Under the pieces are notes generated by a model, which was given only the letters and a program-made list of their open reading frames with translations, was not told where the DNA came from and made no database searches. Shown piece by piece: positions 16,965-39,994 of a stretch of DNA of 64,000 nucleotides. The translations under genes and the position numbers were made by a program. Each line of letters begins with the position of its first letter. Within the stretch, counting starts at the first letter, position 1. Source of the stretch: Verrucomicrobiota bacterium (GTDB taxonomy: Bacteria; Verrucomicrobiota; Kiritimatiellia; SS1-B-03-39; UBA6053); assembly GCA_020831625.1 (NCBI GenBank), contig JAFIGD010000014.1, forward strand, positions 1-64,000, in the 5' to 3' direction.

Positions 16965-19600
16965 TTTGAGTTCCCTTCGATCCGTTCATCAAACCGGATG
17001 CTGGTGTGGACATTGAACTCCGCAACTCTAAAAGACGATTGCGGAAGATGCAAGTCCTCCAGCCACGGATCTCCGCGCCCCCGGAATACAGCCCCGTCAT
17101 ACTCGGAAAGGGAAACAGTCAGCCGGTCCCGCGTTCCGGCATGCCAAACCCGCGTGTCCCTGGCGGTCCGACGGGGAAAACGCACGGAATCCTGATGAAA
17201 ATCAATCGACTGAATGCGTGACCGGGGCACACGCAACGTTTCGCCCTCAATTTGCAGGTTCAAGGCCTCACCCTCGCCGTCCGACACGCTGGTTACCAAC
17301 ACATCGCCATTGGAAAATAAAACACGGTCCCCCGCTCCGCCCTCGATTTCCAGCACGCCCTCCCCTGAAAATGCGTGAGGATGGGCCGCAAACACAATAT
17401 CCTCCACCCAGAGCCTCTGAAACGGTGAACGGGACGTAATCCGCATCAGCCGCTCCGGCTGCATCCGCATCTCCGACGGATGTTGAATCCGCCACGGCCC
17501 GATCACCTCGCCGTTGAACACCAGCATCATTTCCTCTCGGCGCAGATCCGCCAGCACCCTCAAGTCTCTGCGGCCGGAATCAAGCGCCGTCCCGAGATTC
17601 TTTCGGAAGTATACCGTATTTTGAAAACCCGCAAATGTCCCCGCCCCGTGCAGTCTTGGCCCCTGCGAAAAAAAGTGCAGACCGCCCAGGGGCACATCCA
17701 CCGATCCCATTGCGAAAAGTTCCACCGTAAAATCACCCGGGCCACCCTCGGCCCGCATGTGAATCCGAATTTCAAACCGGTCCGGCATGGGCGGCATGCT
17801 CCGCACAATCCCACGAATCCCCGGAATCACCACAGAGCTTCCCACTTGTGACTCCTCCGTGACCACCGGGCCGGACACCTGCACATGCCAGTCCTCCAAC
17901 CGCCCGGGGCCCCGCCATAACAAAGCCCGGCCCGAAGGGACCGACACCATCCGCCGAATGAATTCCCGGCGGGAACGCACCGTCTGGCCCCAGGCGGTTT
18001 TCAGCACCACCTCCGCTTCGTCCATCCACACAAAACGACCCGACAGCCGGTCACCGTTCACATAGTCCAGACGCGTGTCCGCATCCCGTTCAACCGCTTC
18101 CGCGCCGCCGCTCCGGCGGATGTGTCCGACATACGCCGCCGGAATGCGGAGCGGATCGCTGCGTTCCCCCCGAAGAAACTGAAGTGTGGTTCCGTCCAGC
18201 CCGGAGACCTCCCCGAAAATCAGATCGCCGTTCAACAAATGCATCTCGTCCCGCCCCCGGAAACGTTCCGGTTTCCCGGAAGAAACCGTCTCCATCCGCA
18301 CCAGATTTGAAAACGGGATTACCGCCTCGTCCAGCCATCCCGAAACTCCGCCCCGGACCGAGTCCCCGTCCCCGTTCACCGGACGCAACGTCAGCCGCCC
18401 CCGATAATCCAGAGTCCGCACGCGAACAGACAGATCAGAGCCGGGCTTAACATCAGCCGGAGAATCCGCAAAAACCACCGCCGCCACCCGGTCCCGGGAA
18501 AGCACCAAAACATCCCGGCCCTCCAACACCCGAAGCGTTTCGGAACCGAACGAAAGCAACCGGCCCTCAACCCGGCGTCCGTCCCACAGATAGATCCGGT
18601 CCAGATCGGAGCGCGTAAAACCACTCCGGCGGGGAGCAAGCGTGGACCGGTGCTCCCGAAGCCGAAGCCCCAGCAATTCAATTTGGCCATCTCCGCCCTG
18701 CGCCTGAAAAGAAAACATCCGGTCCTCCGCCCCGATCAAGGTTGAAGCCTCCGGCAGCTTGAGGGTCAGCATCCGCTCATCATTCAGATCCACTTCAACC
18801 GTTTCGCTTTCCAAGTCCACCCAAAACACAAACCGCTGTTCGGCCGCCGCCACTTCCGGCAGCCGGTCGCGCCAAGTCACGGTTTCAGCGAGATCCCTTC
18901 CCTCACCCGAGACCGCCAGCATCCGATGATTCACCTCCAGGTTCACATTGCCCGGCCCCCGGGTATTGTCCCCCAGTCCGAACAAATTCAGCCGATACAG
19001 AAAATTGGGTTCACTGGGACGCACATCCACCTCAAACACAAAGCGTATCGGCAGTTTCGGCAAAGCGGTTCGGGCGGACATTCCGCTCACCGCGTGGAAA
19101 ATAAACGGATTTCCGGTTTCCGCCCCCGCCCCCCCGGTGCCCATGGGATCCCGGAAATGCCATTCGGACCCGTGTGAGGGCCCCCGCATCAGGACCCGAT
19201 CTGAATCGTTCGAAAAACGAATCTCACGCACCGCCTCCCGGCGCACGCGCACACGTTGCCCCCATGAGGTTTTTAAGATCAGCACATCATCCGACATCTC
19301 CAGCCAGTCCCCTTCAACCCGGTCCCCGGTACGGAAGCGCACATCCGAACCGCCGGCCCGGAGCGGAAACCCGGCGGCCGGCGGCAGGAGAACCTGTTCA
19401 ATCTCTGCCAACTCCGTTGTCACGGGCTCCAGGCTCCAGCGGGGCCGAATCCGCAACCCCTCCGCGCCCAAGGCCACCACCTCCCCCCGAACCCGCTCAC
19501 CGCTCCTGAACCGCGCCTCCGCTCCCGGAACCCGAACCGGTACCAGGCAACACCACATCAACAAAACCGAAATAAGACGCATATCCCACATGTAATTCAT
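16961..19600 (-). CDS. Secreted NGD-repeat family protein, double-length copy 1 of 3
   Basis: Protein of 879 residues with a signal sequence; MRLISVLLMWCCLVPVR at codon 7 is an alternative start at 19582. It equals two copies of the neighbouring proteins in tandem. The first half has RFRSGERVRGEVVALGAEGLRIRPRW, VRFRTGDRVEGDWLEMSDDVL and TSWGQRVRVRREAVREIRF. The second half repeats this as LLNGDLIFGEVSGLDGTTLQFL, DYVNGDRLSGRFVWMDEAEVVL and TAWGQTVRSRREFIRRMVSV, then a sandwich-like region and a final NGDVLVTSVSDGEGE module. It is first of the three secreted genes, 46 bp after the response regulator, so it may be a target or partner of that signalling system. Confidence 0.82.
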   Translation of the reverse strand: MNYMWDMRLISVLLMWCCLVPVRVPGAEARFRSGERVRGEVVALGAEGLRIRPRWSLEPVTTELAEIEQVLLPPAAGFPLRAGGSDVRFRTGDRVEGDWLEMSDDVLILKTSWGQRVRVRREAVREIRFSNDSDRVLMRGPSHGSEWHFRDPMGTGGAGAETGNPFIFHAVSGMSARTALPKLPIRFVFEVDVRPSEPNFLYRLNLFGLGDNTRGPGNVNLEVNHRMLAVSGEGRDLAETVTWRDRLPEVAAAEQRFVFWVDLESETVEVDLNDERMLTLKLPEASTLIGAEDRMFSFQAQGGDGQIELLGLRLREHRSTLAPRRSGFTRSDLDRIYLWDGRRVEGRLLSFGSETLRVLEGRDVLVLSRDRVAAVVFADSPADVKPGSDLSVRVRTLDYRGRLTLRPVNGDGDSVRGGVSGWLDEAVIPFSNLVRMETVSSGKPERFRGRDEMHLLNGDLIFGEVSGLDGTTLQFLRGERSDPLRIPAAYVGHIRRSGGAEAVERDADTRLDYVNGDRLSGRFVWMDEAEVVLKTAWGQTVRSRREFIRRMVSVPSGRALLWRGPGRLEDWHVQVSGPVVTEESQVGSSVVIPGIRGIVRSMPPMPDRFEIRIHMRAEGGPGDFTVELFAMGSVDVPLGGLHFFSQGPRLHGAGTFAGFQNTVYFRKNLGTALDSGRRDLRVLADLRREEMMLVFNGEVIGPWRIQHPSEMRMQPERLMRITSRSPFQRLWVEDIVFAAHPHAFSGEGVLEIEGGAGDRVLFSNGDVLVTSVSDGEGEALNLQIEGETLRVPRSRIQSIDFHQDSVRFPRRTARDTRVWHAGTRDRLTVSLSEYDGAVFRGRGDPWLEDLHLPQSSFRVAEFNVHTSIRFDERIEGNSK

Positions 19601-19646
19601 CCCCGCACCACATGCAAATGATAACGGTGAGGATTAGAATGAGGAT

Positions 19647-20309
19647 CTAGATCTGAAAATCCCCGGGCGCATCCCCCTTCACCCAAATCCGCGCGGCCGC
19701 GACCAGACTCTTCGCATCTTTTATTTTTAGTTTGTTTTTGATTTTTTCCCGATGCGCCTCCACCGTTTTGATGCTGAGCCCCAAATGTCCGGCCACCTCC
19801 GCAGTGGCATAACCGCTTCCCAGCATCTGAAACACGTGCAGCTCCCGGTCGCTTAACCGGCTTACCGGACTGTCCCCCTTCGGCATGGGCCGCTTCAGCA
19901 GTTTTTTCATCACCATCGCCTGCGTGGCCCGCGTCAGAAAAAACTCCCCCCGCATCACCGTTTGCACCGCGTCCAGGACGTGCACCGGTTCGTCACTTTT
20001 GGAGACCATTCCCAATGCTCCGGCTTTCAATACCCTCTCCGCATACAGCGCCTCCGGCTGCATCGAGATCACCAGCACCTTTAAGTTTTCAAATCTGCTG
20101 GTGATCTCTTTTACAAAATCCAGACCATCCTCCGCTCCCAGCACTAAATCCACCACCGCAAAGTCCACCTCATGCGCCTCCAGCAGCGACTGGGCCTCCA
20201 TTCGGTTTCCGGCCTCAAGCACAAGATGCTTCTGTGGCAGACTTTCCACCATTGCACGAATGCCTTTGCGGACCATCGGGTGATCATCAACAAGAAGTAT
20301 CGTTTTCAT
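19647..20309 (-). CDS. NarL/FixJ-type response regulator
   Basis: Regulator of 220 residues. Receiver domain at 1-120: DD at 8-9, phospho-acceptor Asp in FAVVDLVLG (near 54), Thr/Ser-equivalent in VLVISMQ, and Lys in MVSKSD. A LuxR-type helix-turn-helix occupies about 150-212 (LSDRELHVFQMLGSGYATAEVAGHLGLSIKTVEAHREKIKNKL). It sits directly downstream of two sensor-kinase proteins and upstream of three secreted paralogues, with a promoter-like element just before its ATG. The set should form one two-component pathway. Autoregulation through the GGGG-N5-CCCC element is plausible but unproven. Confidence 0.93.
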   Translation of the reverse strand: MKTILLVDDHPMVRKGIRAMVESLPQKHLVLEAGNRMEAQSLLEAHEVDFAVVDLVLGAEDGLDFVKEITSRFENLKVLVISMQPEALYAERVLKAGALGMVSKSDEPVHVLDAVQTVMRGEFFLTRATQAMVMKKLLKRPMPKGDSPVSRLSDRELHVFQMLGSGYATAEVAGHLGLSIKTVEAHREKIKNKLKIKDAKSLVAAARIWVKGDAPGDFQI

Positions 20310-20316
20310 ACTGCCT

Positions 20317-20363
20317 TTTATACCATAATTCCACAGGTCCGCCTATCGGGGCACCCCCCCTAT
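20317..20363 (-). promoter_or_regulatory. Promoter-like element of the response regulator: GGGG-N5-CCCC repeat plus extended -10
   Basis: Read on the minus strand: ATAGGGG-N5-CCCCGATA, then 21 bp, then TATAAA, preceded by ATGG so that TG occupies the extended -10 position. An identical arrangement with the same spacings is found at 39948-39994. No -35 hexamer is seen, as expected for an activated promoter. The RR start codon lies 8 bp beyond the -10, so the RNA would have almost no leader. The TAG of the element is also the stop codon of the upstream kinase gene. Confidence 0.55.
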
Positions 20364-20992
20364 TTTTTGAAAAATTCATGATGAATTTGCCGGCCATTAT
20401 GAGCGCAAAGGGTGGCCAGGTCCGCGATGTTGCCATACAAAGTCTCCCGCGCATGACCCTGCTTCCGAAGCGCCAATGCCCGGGTCTGAAAGTGAAGACT
20501 CGCCAGCAGCTGCGACAACCCGTCATGCAAATCCCGGGAAATGCGTCGTCGTTCCTCCCTGTCCGCAGCCTCCAATTGCCGCGTTCTCGCCATGGCCTCC
20601 GACAAATCCACCAAAGTCACCAACATTCCGTTCCCCTCTTCCAGCCTCAAGGCCGAGGCCGCGTGAATCACCAGAAAAATGTTCGAACGGGGCGTGGACC
20701 ATTCCAGGGTCACCGGCAACCCCCTCAAAACTTGTCCCGCTTTCACATAAATCTCTTTCACCAAGGCATCCGGGGAATCTCCGACAGAGGCCAAAAGCGT
20801 CCGGGCTCGTTCGTTTTCCAAGATCACCTCTCCTTTCTGGAAAACAAACACCACGTCCGACACCTCGTCGAACAAGCGTCGCATACGGTCCCTCGCCTCC
20901 TCCAGATCTTCCTGATTCAACCGGGTTTGACGGTGCCCCGTCTGCAAATGCAGCACCACCTCGTCCGGCCCGGGAACATGCGGCCCGCTCAT
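20360..20992 (-). CDS. Sensor kinase half: PAS-like plus phospho-acceptor DHp domain, no ATPase domain
   Basis: Protein of 210 residues. A PAS-like region at about 35-130 (DEVSDVVFVFQKGEVILENERARTLL) is followed by a HisKA_3-type dimerisation helix with a good H-box, REERRRISRDLHDGLSQLLASL; the phospho-acceptor is His156. The chain stops 54 residues later, after the second helix (HHEFFKK). No N, G1 or G2 box is present, so it cannot phosphorylate itself. It overlaps the 516-aa kinase gene by four bases, and that protein supplies an ATPase domain. The natural reading is a subunit phosphorylated in trans. The stop is a clean TAG and the response regulator follows, so recent truncation is less likely than a stable split. 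Confidence 0.85.
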   Translation of the reverse strand: MSGPHVPGPDEVVLHLQTGHRQTRLNQEDLEEARDRMRRLFDEVSDVVFVFQKGEVILENERARTLLASVGDSPDALVKEIYVKAGQVLRGLPVTLEWSTPRSNIFLVIHAASALRLEEGNGMLVTLVDLSEAMARTRQLEAADREERRRISRDLHDGLSQLLASLHFQTRALALRKQGHARETLYGNIADLATLCAHNGRQIHHEFFKK

Positions 20993-22539
20993 GCCGCCGG
21001 TTCTCCCCGTATGCCGGGTTTGAAGACCCAGCCCGTGCCACCGGACTCCACGGGGACAGCATCTAAACCAATTTTCTTCGCCCGCTCCCGGATACTGTCC
21101 AATCCCAGACCGGTCCCGTTCTTCCCGCAGGCCGCGAAGCCCCTCCCGGCGTCAATCACCCGGACCTCCTGCTGCGACAAACACACCCGCACCTCGTCAA
21201 CCCCTGAATGCCGCCAGGCATTGCGCACCGCCTCCCGAAGCATAAAAAACAACTCGCCCCGCGCTTTTGACGCCGCGAACCGCGGAAAAGACGCACCCTC
21301 CAGTTTCACCTCGAAACCAAACACCTCCCGGTATTCACGGGCCAACGCATAGAGGGCCTCCAACAGCTCGGCGTCGGAGCCAAAGCCCTCCCCCGCGTCC
21401 TCCACCAGTGCAAGACCCTGTTCCAGGCAATGACAGGTCAGCGACCGCAAGGAGGACAGCAACGCCTTTGTTTCCGGATCCTCCTCGTCTTGTGCCGCTT
21501 CAGTGAGTTGCAGATCCAATTCCGCCAACAAGCTCCCCAAATCCTCCTCCAGCCGTTTTTCCGCCAGCCGCCGAACCGCAAGCGCGCCCGTTTCGGCGCG
21601 CTGCTCCAACGCCAGCATGCGGGTCTGATCCTGCAGGGTCAGCAAATGTTCGCGCCCCCCCCGCGCGTCCTCACAGGACGAACACCGGACACGGTATACG
21701 CGGCCCATCCCCTCCCAAATCGACACTTCGGGACCGCCCTGCCGCAAAACCCCCGCAAAGCTGTCCATGGAAAACCCGGAGTCCTCCAGCAATTTCCGTC
21801 CTTCGCGGTTCGCCTGAATCACCTCCCCCTCCCGCATTAAAAACACCGCGTCCGACACTGCGTCAAAGGCCTTGTCCAGATTTTCCGTCTCCCGGGTCAG
21901 CGAGGTCGACACCCGCCGCACCTCCCGCCGACAGCACCACAGCTCCCAAAACGTCTTCATTCGGGAGTAGACCGGATTAAACGCGACCCGCGAATGCAAA
22001 GAACGTTTATCAAAGGTAATGTCCGCCACCGCGTGATGGGAAAACACCTCCAGCGAATGAATGGTGTGCTGAAGTTTCGCCTGCGGACTGCTCCCCGTCC
22101 ACACCCCGGTCAGAAAATAGAAGAAGTCCGGGAACGGCTCCAAATGGTCCGGGATCGACATGGTCACTTCGAAGCGGTCCGCACCTTGATCCGTATAATC
22201 GATCCGATAGCCCCGCATCATCCGGCCCGCCATCAGGGTTTTTGCCACCCAAAGAATCCGTTCCCAATTCGTGTACTGCGCGTACAAATGGGCGGAGCGG
22301 GTCCGGTAGCGTTCATTCAGATACCGCTGCCCCATCGGCACCAGCGCCGGACCGCTCCCGATCCGTTCGAACACCGGACGCATCACCCCCGTATACTCCT
22401 CCCAATCCACCCAGCTCGCTCTCCGGTCCACCACCTTCGGATCCCGAAGGCGCGACAACATCGCCTCTCTCGGCTCACCAAACAATTCCCCCGCCTCCAG
22501 ACTGCACCGCAGCATAAAGTTGGAAATTTCCCGGGCCAT
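20989..22539 (-). CDS. Sensor kinase half: sensory domain, PAS and ATPase domain with the phospho-acceptor His replaced
   Basis: Protein of 516 residues. Residues 1-200 form an unrecognised, probably soluble, sensory domain (WVDWEEYTGVMRPVFERIG; YTNWERILWVAKTL). A PAS-like segment follows at 222-310 (DAVSDAVFLMREGEVIQANREGRKLL). The dimerisation helix RRLAEKRLEEDLGSLLAELDL aligns with the H-box of the next gene but has Glu331 where the phospho-acceptor His belongs. A HATPase_c domain at 425-508 is intact: REAVRNAWRHSG (Asn440, His444), VIDAGRGF and GTGLGLDSIRERAKKIG. It should therefore bind ATP and transfer phosphate to the partner protein. No TM helix is apparent, so it is probably cytoplasmic. 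Confidence 0.87.
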   Translation of the reverse strand: MAREISNFMLRCSLEAGELFGEPREAMLSRLRDPKVVDRRASWVDWEEYTGVMRPVFERIGSGPALVPMGQRYLNERYRTRSAHLYAQYTNWERILWVAKTLMAGRMMRGYRIDYTDQGADRFEVTMSIPDHLEPFPDFFYFLTGVWTGSSPQAKLQHTIHSLEVFSHHAVADITFDKRSLHSRVAFNPVYSRMKTFWELWCCRREVRRVSTSLTRETENLDKAFDAVSDAVFLMREGEVIQANREGRKLLEDSGFSMDSFAGVLRQGGPEVSIWEGMGRVYRVRCSSCEDARGGREHLLTLQDQTRMLALEQRAETGALAVRRLAEKRLEEDLGSLLAELDLQLTEAAQDEEDPETKALLSSLRSLTCHCLEQGLALVEDAGEGFGSDAELLEALYALAREYREVFGFEVKLEGASFPRFAASKARGELFFMLREAVRNAWRHSGVDEVRVCLSQQEVRVIDAGRGFAACGKNGTGLGLDSIRERAKKIGLDAVPVESGGTGWVFKPGIRGEPAA

Positions 22540-22566
22540 CCTTTGATCGCCTCCGCAGCTCCGGAC

Positions 22567-23145
22567 TTACCAGCGGAAACGGATGCCCACGTTGGCCGAA
22601 ACCTTGTGCACATCCGAATCTTCAAGCATCAGCGGCACCGGCAAACTCTCCCCGCCGCGGAATTTCACCGTGCTCGTCCGGTATTGAACCTCCACATACA
22701 ACTGAAGATCCGTGCCGGTGCTGATTCCCGCCAGCGCATACCACCCCTCGTTGTTTTCGGTCTGAATCGGCACCGGCTGACCGTTCAGCGAAAAATCCGA
22801 ATCCAGCCGCATGAAATAGACACCGCCGCTCACATACAGATCCGCGCCCGGTCCAATCGCCGCGCGCATCCCCAGTCCCAGCTCCAGCGGCGTCAAATCA
22901 CTCTCCACGTCCAGGAGAACCGGGCCCGATTCACGGGTGGTCTTCACCGTGTCGTAGACCCCGCCCCGCGCCTCCACAAAAAACACCTCACCCAGCGGCA
23001 ACGTCAACACCGCCCCAAACCCCAATGCGTCCCCCGAATCCCGCACGTCCACATACGACCCGTGAATCCCGAATGTCGTCTGAGCCCGCAGCGAAAGCCC
23101 CGAGATTACCAAAAAACTAAACACCAAAATAGACTTACAGTTCAT
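22567..23145 (-). CDS. Small outer-membrane beta-barrel protein
   Basis: Protein of 192 residues with a signal peptide (MNCKSILVFSFLVISGLSLRAQ). Alternating strands typical of an eight-stranded barrel include FGAVLTLPLGEVFFVEARGGVY, LELGLGMRAAIGPGADLYVSGGVYFMRL, GWYALAGISTGTDLQLYVEVQYR, and a C-terminal strand NVGIRFRW that ends in an aromatic residue as recognised by the BAM machinery. It lies 27 bp upstream of the sensor kinase gene on the same strand, so it may be the envelope component that the two-component system monitors. The exact role is unknown. Confidence 0.82.
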   Translation of the reverse strand: MNCKSILVFSFLVISGLSLRAQTTFGIHGSYVDVRDSGDALGFGAVLTLPLGEVFFVEARGGVYDTVKTTRESGPVLLDVESDLTPLELGLGMRAAIGPGADLYVSGGVYFMRLDSDFSLNGQPVPIQTENNEGWYALAGISTGTDLQLYVEVQYRTSTVKFRGGESLPVPLMLEDSDVHKVSANVGIRFRW

Positions 23146-23555: not shown

Positions 23556-26132
23556 TTACTCATCAATTTCGACAGGCAATCCGATGTTCATCATGGTGAA
23601 ATGAATGTTCATTTCCTTGGGGATCTCAACCTCCACCACCACCTCATCCCAATCATCATTGATCGGGGTGACACTGACCGGGTCTGGAAATGCCATCCAT
23701 CCTTCCAGTAAATTCGTGCTGTAAAGGGGAGTGTAAGTCAGCTCCAAATCTTTCCGCCGGGGATAGGTCATGGTTAAAACAGAGAACTCCGGATAAAGCT
23801 CCAACCGATCAGAAACGGGCAAACCTCTGGCCTGTCCACCGCCAACAGCAAAAGAAGAACGATCCGATGAATGCAAATCAAGATTGAACGCGATTTTCGC
23901 CAGATTGGTCAGGCGGTCGCTCTGTCCCGCGGAAAACAACGATACGGCGGCGGGGTCCGGTTGTAAGCCGGACAAATGGTCCAACAACTCAGAGATTGCG
24001 GGTGTAAGCGTGTGCGTCCGGGTGATCGTGCCAGTATCTTCCAGCGTAATCATTTCGCCGGTGAGCAAATCTACAAAGTCAATGATGCCGCTGTACAAGG
24101 TCACCTGTACTTCCGCATCCATACCCTCTTCGGAATAGGTGATTTCAACGTCTGTCCCGCGAACACCAAGGCTAGCAAAGGGACTTTTGATATACAAATT
24201 CGTTTTGCTGTGGTCAGGAGACCCCACATAGTCATCCGTTAGAAATCTTCGAATTCTCCCTTTGATCACCTCATAGATACTCGGCTCTTTATCCGAAAAC
24301 AGCTGAATCCTCATTTCAGAATTAGACCCGACAGTAATGGCAGAATGATCAAGGAGCAGTAGTGTACATGCGGAATCAAGACCCGAGATGACCATATCGT
24401 TTTCGAACAAAAAATCATTCACTTCCGCCTCCCATTCTCCTATGGTGCCGTCGCCTCTTTCCTCTCGAATGATCACGGAACCATGAACTTGCGAAATCGT
24501 TCCAATTCTCCTCCAAAACTGCGGTTCCTCCCACACAAAAACTCCGTTTTCAGACAGTGCTCCGACTGTGGTGATCCAGGCGGGTTTGTTTACCTGCGCT
24601 TTGAAGTCGTTGTAACTGATGTCGAGAACGGACAAGTTTCCAAGATTCAAAAGGGAAGTCGGCAGCGGACCGTGTAGTCGATTTCCGGCCACATTCAGAT
24701 GGGTAAGACCTGTCAATCCTCCGACGCCGGGTTCTAATTCTCCTTCAATCTGATTCCAGGACAGATCCAGCACCTGGAGCGTGGAATTCCCGCTCAAATT
24801 GTAGAAAACCATATCTGTAAACTGGTTTCCTGAAAGATTCAAACTGACGAGATTCAACAGATTCCACACCCCCGCCGGGATGGAACCCGTCAGAGAGTTC
24901 CCCTGCAAATACATCTCCGTGACATTGGCCAGATTTCCAAGTTCACCCGGCAACTCCCCGGAAAGTTGGTTCCAATAGAGCTGCAAACTTTCAAGCTGGG
25001 TCAGATTTCCGATGGACGAAGGAATTTCCCCGGTCAGTTGATTGTCGGACAACCACAGGTTTTGTAAGAGCAACAGGTCGCCGATGGATTGGGGGATCGA
25101 ACCGGATAATTGGTTGCCCCAGAGAGATAGTGTGGTTAATTTGGATAAATTTCCGATGGACGAAGGGATATCACCTGTTAATTCATTATTATCGACATAT
25201 AGCCATTGAAGTCCCGTCAATTCACCTATATTTCCAGGTAATTCGCCTGTAAGTTGATTATGGCTAAGCCAAAGTAATTCTAAATCAGACAATCCATTAA
25301 TTGTCAAAGGAACCTCACCTGATAATTGATTAAAACTCAAATTTAACCATTCCAACTTACTTAGATTTCCTATCGTTTCAGGCAGTTCTCCGGTTAATTC
25401 ATTTACAGCAAGATCAAGCTGCACTAAATTTGAAATATTTCCGAGGGTTTGAGGGATTTCACCAGCTAAATAATTTGATCTCAAAAACAGGAATTCTAAA
25501 CTTGAAATATTTCCGATTGTTTGAGGAATCTCTCCAGTCAGTTGATTTGAGGACAGATCTAAAACTGTTAAATTTGCAAGATTTCCGATGGCTTGAGGAA
25601 TCCCACCAGTCAGTTGATTTGAAGACAGATTCAAAACAGCTAAATTCGTAAGGTTCCCAATTGATTGAGGTATGCTGCCTGTCAGCTGATTTGAATCAAG
25701 ACGAAGAAAATCCATATATGTTAAATTGCCAAGTGTTTCAGGAATTGAACCTGTAAGAGATGAATCATAGAGATTTACAGAAAATATGGCATATCCACCG
25801 ACCAATATCCATCCAGTTTGAAACTCGTCACTAACAAACTGAAATGAAGTTGAATTTGTTGGTAAAGCTCCAACTTTATCAAGCGGTTGAGATACAGCGC
25901 ATTCAAAATCCCAGTTTAAATGCGGATTATTATTCATTACATCTAAAAGAAACTGTATTTCACCTTCAGGCAAAACATCATTCCATGTAAACCAGTCTTC
26001 CGATTCAATAGGTATAAATTTACCAATATTTTGCCCAAATAGATTTACGGGAATTAGAATCAGGAGCATCACTAAAGAGATACAGGAAATTTTGTCTGAA
26101 AAACTGATTTGTTGTTTTATATTCACTTTCAC
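23556..26132 (-). CDS. Secreted plant-type leucine-rich-repeat protein with a FecR domain
   Basis: Protein of 858 residues. An N-terminal hydrophobic signal (about 17-33) precedes an entry region (WFTWNDVLPEGEIQFLLDVMNNNP). About 17-18 LRRs of 24 residues of the plant-specific type (LTGSIPQSIGNLTNLAVLNLSSNQ) span roughly 125-540. A FecR-like domain follows at about 555-690 (GTISQVHGSVIIRE, SPFASLGVRGTDVEI), then a C-terminal beta region. The start is GTG, overlapping the preceding stop as GTGA. Base use changes inside the gene: the LRR-coding 5' part (about 25.1-26.1 kb) is clearly AT-richer than the 3' part. It is last in a leftward run starting near 30.6 kb. Plant-type LRRs in bacteria usually serve adhesion or ligand binding. 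Confidence 0.88.
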   Translation of the reverse strand: MKVNIKQQISFSDKISCISLVMLLILIPVNLFGQNIGKFIPIESEDWFTWNDVLPEGEIQFLLDVMNNNPHLNWDFECAVSQPLDKVGALPTNSTSFQFVSDEFQTGWILVGGYAIFSVNLYDSSLTGSIPETLGNLTYMDFLRLDSNQLTGSIPQSIGNLTNLAVLNLSSNQLTGGIPQAIGNLANLTVLDLSSNQLTGEIPQTIGNISSLEFLFLRSNYLAGEIPQTLGNISNLVQLDLAVNELTGELPETIGNLSKLEWLNLSFNQLSGEVPLTINGLSDLELLWLSHNQLTGELPGNIGELTGLQWLYVDNNELTGDIPSSIGNLSKLTTLSLWGNQLSGSIPQSIGDLLLLQNLWLSDNQLTGEIPSSIGNLTQLESLQLYWNQLSGELPGELGNLANVTEMYLQGNSLTGSIPAGVWNLLNLVSLNLSGNQFTDMVFYNLSGNSTLQVLDLSWNQIEGELEPGVGGLTGLTHLNVAGNRLHGPLPTSLLNLGNLSVLDISYNDFKAQVNKPAWITTVGALSENGVFVWEEPQFWRRIGTISQVHGSVIIREERGDGTIGEWEAEVNDFLFENDMVISGLDSACTLLLLDHSAITVGSNSEMRIQLFSDKEPSIYEVIKGRIRRFLTDDYVGSPDHSKTNLYIKSPFASLGVRGTDVEITYSEEGMDAEVQVTLYSGIIDFVDLLTGEMITLEDTGTITRTHTLTPAISELLDHLSGLQPDPAAVSLFSAGQSDRLTNLAKIAFNLDLHSSDRSSFAVGGGQARGLPVSDRLELYPEFSVLTMTYPRRKDLELTYTPLYSTNLLEGWMAFPDPVSVTPINDDWDEVVVEVEIPKEMNIHFTMMNIGLPVEIDE

Positions 26133-36379: not shown

Positions 36380-36856
36380 TCATGCATTCACCTCCATGGG
36401 GATACCGTATCCAAGCCCCAAAGGGGCAACGCATACCAGCCCGGGGAACGGCCCCGGGTTTTGGGGTACATAAACGGGTGCGGTCTGAAGGACCGCCGCA
36501 TAGTTGCGGTGGCGTGGGGTACGGCTCGGGCACCGGGTATGCGGCGGTCCTTCAGACCGCACGGTATTCCTATCGCCTTTTCCCAGGGTTGCACCCCGGG
36601 CTGGTATGCGCCGCCCCGTTGGGGCGTGAATGAAATCGAACCGGTTGGCCTGATGTTCTATGAATGCAATACGGTTTTTCGTGCAGGATCCCGTTGGGTC
36701 GGAATATTCCCAAGCCCCCCATTTGGGACGGATGCCTCTCAGGAGATTCCATACGAAAAACCGGCTCACCCACCCTTCATTCAACAGCGAATCCTCCCCG
36801 TCGGTGATCCACAGGTTCACATTGCCGAACCAGGTGATGCTGAGAAACGGTTCCAT
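36380..36856 (-). CDS. Doubtful small ORF after the T5SS/PEP-CTERM gene, running into a REP copy
   Basis: An open frame of 158 codons whose ATG overlaps the stop of the upstream PEP-CTERM gene (TGATG). The first 75 residues (MEPFLSITWFGNVNLWITDG... FFVWNL... GAWEYSDPTGSC) are rich in Trp and Phe and resemble the C-terminal aromatic modules of secreted verrucomicrobial proteins. The rest is a translation of REP copy 2. Either a real short gene invaded by the repeat or a chance frame. Confidence 0.3.
   Translation of the reverse strand: MEPFLSITWFGNVNLWITDGEDSLLNEGWVSRFFVWNLLRGIRPKWGAWEYSDPTGSCTKNRIAFIEHQANRFDFIHAPTGRRIPARGATLGKGDRNTVRSEGPPHTRCPSRTPRHRNYAAVLQTAPVYVPQNPGPFPGLVCVAPLGLGYGIPMEVNA
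36411..36626. repeat. REP-type repeat, family 1, copy 2
   Basis: About 216 bp with the family 1 layout: a GCCCCAAAGGGGC hairpin, a CCCGGGG...CCCCGGG pair, the inverted GCGGTCTGAAGGACCGCC / GGCGGTCCTTCAGACCGC arms, and a final GCCCCGTTGGGGC hairpin. The 170 bp between the 784-aa gene and this copy hold no gene. Confidence 0.88.
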
Positions 36857-38433
36857 CAGCCTTTCCTCCCCCGCAGCACCAGCACCGACGCGCCCAGAAA
36901 GACAAACAGCATCACCATGGTCGACGGTTCGGGGATCACGGTAATCGTACCATCAGTATAGAGATTGGAAAAATCCCATTCTCTGCCGCCTGACAACTCA
37001 AAGGCATCGATATCGTCGAAGCTGCCAATCAAGTTTGAAAAGGTGAATAAAGCAAAGGTATTCCCGAAAACGGGCATAAAACTATCCCATTGAGCAATTT
37101 GCAGAGTCCCCCCCTCAATTTCCAGGGTTCCATCAATAGATAGCTGGTCATGCCCGGTCCCCGGATTTAGTCCACCGATTTCCATAAGCAGTGTGGCGGT
37201 GTTTTCATGAAGGTAGTCGCCTGTCACATTTGTGATCCCGGGTGAATTTCCGGGTGAAAGCAAGCCCGCATTGGTCAAATTCCCCGAAACCATGGAACTC
37301 CCCGAAAATTCCCCCGATACGGGTACAAACAAGTCTCCAGTGTACGTGCCGTTTACACTTAAAGTTCCCCCATTAAAATTAAAAACGCCATTTGTCGGAT
37401 CAAAATGTCCGGTATTCAACGTCCCGCCCTCCTCCAAATGGATCACGCCGCCACCATGGATTCGAGTAGCACCCGTCACATTTACACTTCCACCCAATCC
37501 AATTTCCAGTGCCCCTGTACCGTTCGTTTCCGCTTCAAGGCTGGACCCACCAAGAATGAGGTTGCGGTTAACATCCCATGTTGAATCCGAACCTGATACA
37601 GTTACCGTACTTTCTGTTAAATTAACTCTTCCTATAAAACCGTCTAATGATGTGACTCGCCCGCCATTTTCTATTATCAATTCTCCAACCCCAACCCATC
37701 CAATATTTAGGATCGAGCTGTTATCCCACCTCGAACCTGAGCCACTAACAGTTACAGAGGAAGACATCCCTGTAGTCCCTATTATCGAAGTTAAGCTAGT
37801 CACACGGCCACCATCAGAAACGGTCATATATCCTGAACCATATTGACCGATTTCTAAAAAACCCATGTTTGTCCAAGTCGAATTTTGTCCGCTAACTATA
37901 ACCACGCCTTGTGAATTACCAGAACCACCGCCATAATTTATTCTACCTGTTTGACTTTCAACAGTACCCCCATCTGTTATTGTGAGAGTACCTTGTCCTT
38001 CATTTCCCACAATGAGTGTTTGAGAATTTGTCCATTTTGAGCCATTTCCTGACACCAATACAGAACCAACAGACCCACTATACAGACCTATATACGCTTC
38101 TCCTGAATAAATGGGATTATTAGTCTCTAATTCGTTGAATCCAGACCCATTGTTACTAAATACACTTCCGTTTTGAATTTGAAGGATTCCGGATTCATTG
38201 TAATTTCGCCCCCCAACAACTGTTGCGCCTTGAAAACTCACATTTGCGCCATTTGTCAAAGTCAATGTGGGATTGTTGCTGCTATGGGATATGTAGAGGA
38301 TACTGTCGTCATTGACTTGAAGCACTCCTCCATTTTGGATGGTATCAGTGGTAATCACAGTATCCTGCGCATGCAATGTGGGAAAAACACTACCAATTAT
38401 TAGTATTCCAAAACATACAATACTATTTTTCAT
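36856..38433 (-). CDS. T5SS/PEP-CTERM-associated repeat protein with a PEP-CTERM tail
   Basis: Protein of 525 residues with a signal peptide (about 1-22, ending LHAQ). The middle (60-330) contains repeats of the type VSGSGSRWDNSSILNIGWVG followed by GELIIENGGRVTSLDG, the T5SS/PEP-CTERM-associated repeat that builds a beta-helix. A region resembling autotransporter strands (FNFNGGTLSVNGTYTGDLFVP; SPGNSPGITNVTGDY) follows. The C-terminus is IPEPST near 500, a hydrophobic helix (MVMLFVFLGASVLVL) and RGRKG. It should be exported, anchored transiently by the tail and processed by exosortase. A strong AAAGGA ribosome site precedes the ATG. The bases 38434-38618 upstream hold no gene. Confidence 0.9.
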   Translation of the reverse strand: MKNSIVCFGILIIGSVFPTLHAQDTVITTDTIQNGGVLQVNDDSILYISHSSNNPTLTLTNGANVSFQGATVVGGRNYNESGILQIQNGSVFSNNGSGFNELETNNPIYSGEAYIGLYSGSVGSVLVSGNGSKWTNSQTLIVGNEGQGTLTITDGGTVESQTGRINYGGGSGNSQGVVIVSGQNSTWTNMGFLEIGQYGSGYMTVSDGGRVTSLTSIIGTTGMSSSVTVSGSGSRWDNSSILNIGWVGVGELIIENGGRVTSLDGFIGRVNLTESTVTVSGSDSTWDVNRNLILGGSSLEAETNGTGALEIGLGGSVNVTGATRIHGGGVIHLEEGGTLNTGHFDPTNGVFNFNGGTLSVNGTYTGDLFVPVSGEFSGSSMVSGNLTNAGLLSPGNSPGITNVTGDYLHENTATLLMEIGGLNPGTGHDQLSIDGTLEIEGGTLQIAQWDSFMPVFGNTFALFTFSNLIGSFDDIDAFELSGGREWDFSNLYTDGTITVIPEPSTMVMLFVFLGASVLVLRGRKG

Positions 38434-38618
38434 CTTTTTTCCTTTGTTGTTTGTTGATTTGAGGGATGATTGGATGACCTAAATGGCAGCCCCCGCCGTG
38501 GTTCCCGTGCGGTGGAGAGGTTGTTGAGATTGATTTACGGGTGGGCGAGAGATTGAGGTTTTCGTGTCCCAACCGGGCAACGTATCCCGGACCAAGTGGG
38601 TTCCCGGTATGCAATCCC

Positions 38619-38830
38619 GCCCCAAGGGGGCAACGCAACCCAGCCCGGGGCAACGCCCCGGGACCGGTGTGGAAAACATCGGTGCGGTCTGTAGGACCGC
38701 CGCATATTTGCGGAGGCTTGGGGTACGGCTCGGGCCCCGGGTATGCGGCGGTCCTTCAGACCGCACCTGATCCATTATGCCATTTCCCAGGGTTGCACCC
38801 TGGGCTGGTATGCGACGCCCCGTTGGGGCT
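38619..38830. repeat. REP-type repeat, family 1, copy 3 (left of the RAYT gene)
   Basis: About 212 bp with the family layout (GCCCCAAGGGGGC start, CCCGGGGCAACGCCCCGGG hairpin, GGCGGTCCTTCAGACCGC arm, GCCCCGTTGGGGC end). One arm reads TGCGGTCTGTAGGACCGCC with a mismatch. It is almost identical to copy 4 on the other side of the transposase gene. Confidence 0.9.
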
Positions 38831-39075
38831 GAAGATAGGCGATGGGTTTTGTGAGCGGTTGTTGTCTTTACCGGTGTGTGTCGCCCCGTTGGGGCTGAAG
38901 ATTCGCGACGGAATTTGCGAACGGTTGTTATCCGGGTTGGTATGCGTCGCCCCGTTGGGGCATGTATGTGACGCCCCGTCGGGGCAGGATTTGCGGGATG
39001 GATGTGGGGATCTGTTGAAATCCAGGCCGGAATGCGCCGCCCCGTTGGGGCTGGCACACGCCTCGTCGTTGGGGC
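38817..39075. repeat. Cluster of GCCCCGTTGGGGC hairpins
   Basis: Five or more copies of a 13-bp hairpin, GCCCCGTTGGGGC or close variants (one with GTCGG), spaced at irregular 25-75 bp between copy 3 and the transposase gene. Several are preceded by TATGCG or TGTGTC. These look like single REP units left by the element. Confidence 0.8.
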
Positions 39076-39129
39076 TGTTTTTCGCGTTTTTTGATTTTCA
39101 ACCCAATCCAACCCCATTACCTTCTCCAT

Positions 39130-39582
39130 ATGCCCCAATCCCATGCCTGTGTTTTGCTGCACATCATTTTCAGCACCAAGGATCGCCATCCCTGGCTTCA
39201 TGACAACATCCGCCCGCAAACCCATGCGTTTCTCGCGGGGGTGGTTCGCAAATGCGACTGTGAGGCCTACCGCGTCGGCGGGGTGACGGATCATATACAT
39301 TTGGCGGTCCGACATTCCCGCACCCTGCCGATTTCCGATCTGATTCAGGAAATCAAAACCGCCTCCAGCAAATGGATCAAAACGCAGGCGGAGGGATCTC
39401 CCGATTTCGCCTGGCAAAACGGATACGGCGCCTTTTCGCTGGGTATGAGTCAAAAGGAAACTCTTCTCCGTTACATTGACCGCCAGGAGGAACATCACCG
39501 CACCCAAACCTTCCAAGACGAATACCGCGCGTTTTTGCGAAAATACGGCATCGAATTCGACGAACGGTACGTTTGGGATTGA
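39130..39582 (+). mobile_element. REP-associated tyrosine transposase (RAYT, IS200-like)
   Basis: Protein of 150 residues of the Y1/HUH transposase superfamily. The metal-binding HUH motif is DHIHLAVRH near 60, and the catalytic Tyr is in LLRYIDRQEEHH near 115. The opening MPQSHACVLLHIIFSTKDR is typical of IS200-like proteins. The start at 39130 was chosen for family length; an in-frame ATG 39 bp upstream would add 13 residues. It stands alone between REP copies 3 and 4, the usual genomic context of a RAYT, which mobilises REP/REPIN DNA in trans rather than itself. Confidence 0.92.
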
Positions 39583-39591
39583 TGCGGTTGA

Positions 39592-39847
39592 CCGCCCCGA
39601 CGGAGCATCGCATCCCAGCCCGGGGCAACGCCCCGGGACCGGTGTGGAAAACATCGGTGCGGTCTGAAGGACCGCCGCATATTTGCGGTGGCTTGGGCTC
39701 CGGGTATGCGGCGGTCCTTCAGACCGCACCTGATCCATTATGCCCTTTCCCAGGGTTGCACCCTGGGCTGGTATGCGTCGCCCCGTTGTGTCGGATTTGC
39801 GTCGCCCCTTTGGGGCTGCTATACACCGCCCCGTTGGGGCGGATATG
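39592..39847. repeat. REP-type repeat, family 1, copy 4 (right of the RAYT gene)
   Basis: Starts 10 bp after the RAYT stop with GCCCCGACGGAGC, then CCCGGGGCAACGCCCCGGG, the paired arms GCGGTCTGAAGGACCGCC and GGCGGTCCTTCAGACCGC, and ends with three GCCCC...GGGGC hairpins at about 39778-39840. Confidence 0.88.
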
Positions 39848-39947
39848 CGCCTCTTCACTGAGGCGAAGGCAAATGGGGTTTCGGCTGGAATGGGGGCTGT
39901 CATGGCGAGAAACGAATCGACGCAAAGGTTTCAAGAATCACCCGAAC

Positions 39948-39994
39948 ATCATACCATAGGTCGCCCGTCTTGGGTATCGGGGCAACTCCCCTAT
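39948..39994 (-). promoter_or_regulatory. Second copy of the GGGG-N5-CCCC promoter-like element
   Basis: Minus strand: ATAGGGG-N5-CCCCGATA, 21 bp, then TATGAT preceded by ATGG. Motif and spacings equal those before the response regulator gene (20317-20363). No intact gene starts downstream on this strand: the next leftward frame runs antisense through the RAYT and repeats. Confidence 0.5.

Follow-up and report, generated by a model that had tools for sequence, protein, structure and literature searches.

A HisKA_3 histidine kinase of uncultured Verrucomicrobia that is probably divided between two neighboring genes

The window analyzed here, a stretch of 64,000 nucleotides from a Verrucomicrobiota bacterium, carries on its minus strand, in this order, genes for an outer-membrane beta-barrel protein, a 516-aa protein, a 210-aa protein and a NarL-type response regulator. 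We refer to the 516-aa ATPase-bearing half as big and to the 210-aa His-bearing half as small. The genes and their parts are as follows.

22567 to 23145, minus strand: outer-membrane beta-barrel gene directly upstream of big.
20989 to 22539, minus strand: big (516 aa), with an N-terminal domain, a PAS domain, a His-less DHp and an HATPase domain (Pfam, our own HMMs and alignment).
21925 to 22539, minus strand: N-terminal domain of big (residues about 1 to 205), without a Pfam match and found in this genus only.
21628 to 21891, minus strand: PAS-like domain of big (residues about 217 to 304; Pfam PAS_8, E 0.005, and structure prediction).
21391 to 21624, minus strand: degenerate DHp of big (residues about 306 to 383), with two predicted helices.
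21547 to 21549, minus strand: codon GAG of Glu331 of big, in the column of the phospho-acceptor His (alignment; Glu in all three species).
21016 to 21375, minus strand: HATPase (CA) domain of big, with E436 and N440 (N box), D463, G465 and G467 (G1) and G477 and G479 (G2).
20989 to 20992, minus strand: ATGA, the 4-bp overlap of the big stop and small start codons (translational coupling), identical in three species.
20360 to 20992, minus strand: small (210 aa), PAS plus DHp, with its C-terminal end directly after the second DHp helix.
20603 to 20863, minus strand: PAS-like domain of small (residues about 44 to 130; structure prediction).
20369 to 20587, minus strand: intact HisKA_3 DHp of small (residues about 136 to 208; Pfam, our own HMM and alignment).
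20510 to 20527, minus strand: His156-Asp157-x-x-x-Gln161 of small, which comprises the phospho-acceptor and the phosphatase motif of HisKA_3 kinases and does not vary among the three species.
19647 to 20309, minus strand: NarL-type response regulator (220 aa), with receiver residues D8, D9, D54, S82 and K104.

A previous, sequence-only reading had described a 4-bp overlap between the two kinase genes and an adjoining NarL-type regulator; both are confirmed, as are the lengths and strand of the open reading frames. The regulator is of the NarL/FixJ type, having the D, D, D, S/T and K residues of a receiver together with a GerE DNA-binding domain. On the other side of the locus, an 858-aa protein (23556 to 26132, minus strand) contains many leucine-rich-type repeats followed by an apparent FecR-like segment.

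The same reading had assigned to the 210-aa protein an H-box with His156 and no ATPase domain, and to the 516-aa protein intact N, G1 and G2 boxes with Glu331 in the place of the His. We examined this with Pfam and with two HMMs of our own, one for the DHp and one for the ATPase (CA) part, which were derived from some 55 related HisKA_3 kinases and excluded the sequences of big and small. In Pfam, small matched HisKA_3 (E 1e-8) and lacked an ATPase domain, while big matched HATPase_c (E 1e-4) at 23.1 bits, just below the Pfam cut-off of 26.4, and gave a weak PAS match and no HisKA_3 match. With our own models, the ATPase HMM recognized big at 1.2e-26 and gave nothing significant for small, and the DHp HMM recognized small at 1.8e-16 and big only at 0.008. 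A six-frame search of positions 19400 to 22560 with the CA HMM found no hidden ATPase domain in any other frame, and the DHp HMM found no further DHp in the other frames of this region. Neither protein alone thus combines a His-bearing DHp and an HATPase domain on a single polypeptide. When the pair is taken together, small provides the HisKA_3 DHp with its His and big provides the HATPase_c domain with its N, G1 and G2 boxes, so that the His-bearing and catalytic domains lie on separate intact proteins, as in split kinases.

Aligning the DHp regions of both proteins with those of HisKA_3 kinases revealed no His at position 331 of big. H156 and E331 fall in the same column, and BLASTP places them in the same register. 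Among the 61 aligned sequences with a residue in the phospho-acceptor column, 58 have His, and Glu occurs only in the big proteins of the three species. D157 and Q161 are retained in small and lost from big, which leaves the HDxxxQ phosphatase motif to small only. Every ATPase-box residue listed above is retained in big, and Asn440 is at the position where it had been reported; position checks also agree for His156 and Glu331. In net charge, a contrast based on three related pairs, the DHp regions are acidic in big (-9, -7 and -3) and basic in small (+2, +3 and +5), with a mean of -0.5 (sd 3.0) for 55 other kinases. The structure predictions were shallow (3 sequences), with pLDDT values of 65 for small and 54 for big, and values under 50 in part of the first DHp helix of the latter; the shallow model of big contains two DHp helices despite the missing His, and Foldseek matched it to DesK structures, the H188E variant among them.

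The same gene pair was found in two other species of the genus, designated G001 (79% and 83% identity) and G002 (59% and 57%), so that it is known from three species, all of them represented by fragmented assemblies. Both relatives share the Glu, the His, the ATGA overlap and the points at which the domains end, and G002 also has the same kind of outer-membrane beta-barrel gene upstream of big. Both genes are under purifying selection, with whole-gene dN/dS values of 0.12 to 0.26. Between the window and G001, dN/dS was 0.16 for big (0.21 for the DHp and 0.21 for the CA domain) and 0.12 for small (0.08 for the DHp). Over the three species pairs, the His-less DHp of big gave 0.21 to 0.35 and its ATPase domain 0.21 to 0.30, and the most constrained part of the protein was residues 70 to 200 in the N-terminal domain (0.03 to 0.08). 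The occurrence of the same pair in two other species together with these whole-gene values indicates that the pair is more than a product of chance. G001 carries the system twice, each copy damaged differently (L067 4278 to 4856 and 3446 to 4153; L065 1998 to 4386): on contig C257 the kinases are intact and the adjoining regulator is cut after 50 residues, and on contig C211 the regulator is intact and the kinases are reduced by deletions.

The pair was absent from the fourth genome of the genus (G003, 88% complete) and from the other relatives searched. The only HisKA_3-only candidate elsewhere in the phylum, a 264-aa frame in G418, was discarded since a contig end cuts it. A search of public contigs with the 516-aa protein gave no match, and one with an alignment of the N-terminal domain returned the same two species, in two records labelled as uncultured Verrucomicrobia or PVC bins. 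Nothing convincing resembling this domain was found outside the genus in 388 genomes of the phylum; a weak match in G280 was rejected, as it is antisense to another gene. Pfam, solved structures and a fold search yielded nothing usable on the identity of the domain, which is probably a sensor. In the genome studied, only one other HisKA_3 kinase was found, a normal full-length protein elsewhere (G000:C81; 474 aa, with His and ATPase). This kinase is encoded directly after a CheB-CheR-PAS-like gene (L084 3114 to 4538 and 4583 to 7411), and no response-regulator gene was seen beside it.

Both halves had been said to carry a similar PAS segment, and their PAS-DHp parts indeed proved homologous (BLASTP 1e-11, hhalign 1.2e-11). 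The best tree computed from 59 PAS-DHp segments unites small and big, with support of only 84/23. Homology and grouping at this level are consistent with a tandem duplication after which one copy lost its ATPase domain and the other its His. Of the proposal that a duplicated kinase degenerated in a complementary manner, the complementarity of the halves is supported, and the duplication is a possible origin.

The intergenic region before the regulator gene contains a promoter/operator-like element, which led to a candidate output of the system.

20321 to 20362, minus strand: promoter/operator-like 42-bp motif TAGGGG-N4-GCCCCGATA-N18-TGGTA, before the regulator gene.
39952 to 39993, minus strand: second exact copy of the motif, with the same spacing, upstream of a PEP-CTERM protein gene.
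36856 to 38433, minus strand: candidate target, a 525-aa PEP-CTERM protein with T5SS/PEP-CTERM repeats.

These are the only two exact copies in this genome; both lie within the window, 20 kb apart. The first three bases of the motif are the stop codon of small, so that small ends exactly at the start of the promoter-like element of the regulator gene, and the motif is conserved between these two genes in all three species. In the form TAGGGG-N4-GCCCCGATA-N18-TGnTA it is present in four genomes of the genus, with 8 copies altogether. The 42-bp pattern is absent from 284 other relatives, a reversed control pattern had no match in any of the genomes listed, and versions with two mismatches were at background level. 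One match in G002 was discarded, its spacer being one base longer and its GGGG half missing. An IS200-type transposase gene and repeats lie between the distal motif and the PEP-CTERM gene, and in G001 the corresponding copy is directly upstream of a PEP-CTERM protein gene. The transposase gene (39091 to 39582, plus strand) is IS200-like (Y1), resembles a REP-associated transposase, and lies amid several copies of a repeat around 36400 to 39900 that translates as ...TGRRIPARGATLG.... A further copy in G001 precedes a LuxR-type regulator gene, after which comes a gene for a large secreted-type protein; this LuxR-type regulator (L128 2209 to 2796) has no Pfam-recognizable receiver.

An inverted repeat within the motif coincides in part with a -35-like position, and a -10-like TATGGT comes after it, an arrangement that makes it plausible that the motif is a binding site of the NarL-type regulator and that the regulator is autoregulated. 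We infer this assignment from the sequence, and the single copy in G003, where an orthologous regulator was not found, is a reason for caution. The output of the regulator would then be exerted through the 42-bp motif, which precedes both the regulator's own gene and the gene of the PEP-CTERM surface protein.

The two halves are complementary, in register with each other, kept in three species and under purifying selection, and these sequence data are most naturally read as an obligate two-protein kinase. We consider it likely that big and small form one HisKA_3 kinase with split functions, which would act as a heterodimer, undergo phosphorylation in trans and pass the phosphate to the regulator. 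The DHp helices of the two proteins would pair, the ATPase of big would phosphorylate His156 of small, and small would transfer the phosphate to Asp54 of the NarL-type regulator. With small as the sole keeper of HDxxxQ, we suppose, with more reserve, that it might also dephosphorylate the regulator, and the ratio or pairing of big and small might then set the direction of signaling.

The data were also considered in light of other explanations. A pseudogene or an assembly artefact, that is, a single kinase gene broken in this genome, has a parallel in the degraded copies that occur in the genus (G001:C211). Both frames, however, are intact and have low dN/dS in three species whose genomes were assembled separately, and each half has a PAS domain and a DHp, unlike the products of one broken gene. 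The relatives do not carry one full-length gene that is interrupted only here; they carry the same split pair, and this conservation refutes the broken-gene reading, which we regard as highly improbable.

Big could alternatively be an accessory ATP-binding regulator, in which case another of the cell's kinases would phosphorylate small. The second HisKA_3 kinase, for which no adjacent response-regulator gene was seen, would be available for this role. It is, however, far from both big and small in the PAS-DHp tree, small and big are translationally coupled and kept together in all three species, and every ATPase box of big is kept under purifying selection, so that we find this explanation unlikely. 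Similarly improbable in our view is a relay of homodimers, in which small would be a free-standing His phosphotransfer protein and phosphatase that is phosphorylated by big through collision. CheA3/CheA4 provides a precedent for a free His-bearing protein with a role of its own (PMC3591291), and the complete DHp of small could homodimerize. Indirect evidence points the other way: the two-helix DHp of big without a His is most easily read as a dimerization partner, and the opposite DHp charges, acidic in big and basic in small, suit a heterodimer.

Compared with known systems, the heterodimeric kinase that we favor resembles DesK/DesR of Bacillus subtilis in its HisKA_3 fold, and DesR is a NarL-type regulator. 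Small has the equivalents of His188, Asp189 and Gln193 of DesK, and position His188 corresponds to Glu331 of big. The H188E variant of DesK is described as a phosphomimetic with which the asymmetric phosphotransferase complex was captured, and Gln193 and Asp189 act in the phosphatase reaction (PMC5231405; PMC7005713). The Glu is engineered in DesK and natural in big; Glu331 might mimic the H188E phosphomimetic and favor an asymmetric state that uses one side of the dimer. DesK differs from the pair described here in being a single full-length homodimeric membrane kinase.

Split or heterodimeric kinases are already known, and the new elements here are the HisKA_3/NarL setting and the physical complementarity of the halves. 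The Rv0600c/Rv0601c kinases of Mycobacterium tuberculosis belong to another DHp class and act on an OmpR-type regulator. They are encoded by two adjacent genes with one regulator, TcrA (PMC9274095), and are listed as an interrupted coding sequence (PMC2277376); they represent one gene broken in two, whereas big and small each have their own PAS domain and DHp. In FasB/FasC/FasA of group A Streptococcus, two kinases with one regulator form a heterodimer that needs no more than the ATPase domain of one partner and the His of its counterpart, and this shows that a working heterodimer of such a kind is possible (PMC12675982). Both FasB and FasC keep DHp, HATPase and membrane segments, whereas big has no His and small physically lacks the ATPase domain. 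CheA3/CheA4 of Rhodobacter sphaeroides is similar to big and small in distributing the catalytic and His-bearing functions over two proteins, neither of which autophosphorylates alone, and its His-bearing protein is also a phosphatase (PMC3591291), an activity that is only predicted for small. The Rhodobacter proteins are of the CheA class (P1 domain), function in chemotaxis and target CheY6, whereas big and small have a HisKA_3 DHp, PAS domains and a NarL-type regulator; Pfam found none of the CheA domains (P1, P3 to P5) in either. By one estimate, 1.7% of HisKA kinases might be both split and bifunctional (PMC3591291). As modelled by Amin et al. 2013 (PMC3591291), such kinases have a phosphatase on the His-bearing protein, and small carries the phosphatase motif. 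The sequence-only reading had considered this design to be known from a few chemotaxis kinases and unfamiliar among HisKA_3/NarL systems. The Fas and TcrA systems and the 1.7% estimate make the design less unusual than that. No published example of a HisKA_3/NarL split kinase was found in a search of mainly open literature.

The analogies with DesK and CheA3/CheA4 suggest a kinase of fixed asymmetry whose His-bearing half may also be a phosphatase, a feature that the theory of split kinases requires. In theory, bifunctional split kinases can give switch-like responses (PMC3591291). A more far-reaching proposal, which we advance tentatively and regard as somewhat doubtful, is that of a naturally asymmetric HisKA_3 kinase in which the fixed Glu would be a built-in phosphomimetic, only one side of the dimer could be phosphorylated and the other subunit would double as the phosphatase; a self-acting regulator could make this a bistable switch for PEP-CTERM proteins.

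Histidine kinases are normally homodimers, and as both subunits are identical, the reason for keeping two active sites is hard to test. In big and small, the catalytic and acceptor roles, and probably also the kinase and phosphatase roles, are naturally separated, and the family is one whose structural model, DesK for HisKA_3, has been studied well; the roles can thus be removed or titrated one at a time. The results also suggest a possible regulator of PEP-CTERM surface proteins in Verrucomicrobia. In this small group of uncultured Verrucomicrobia, one sensor kinase is now two neighboring genes, whose products probably have to pair in order to switch on the regulator.
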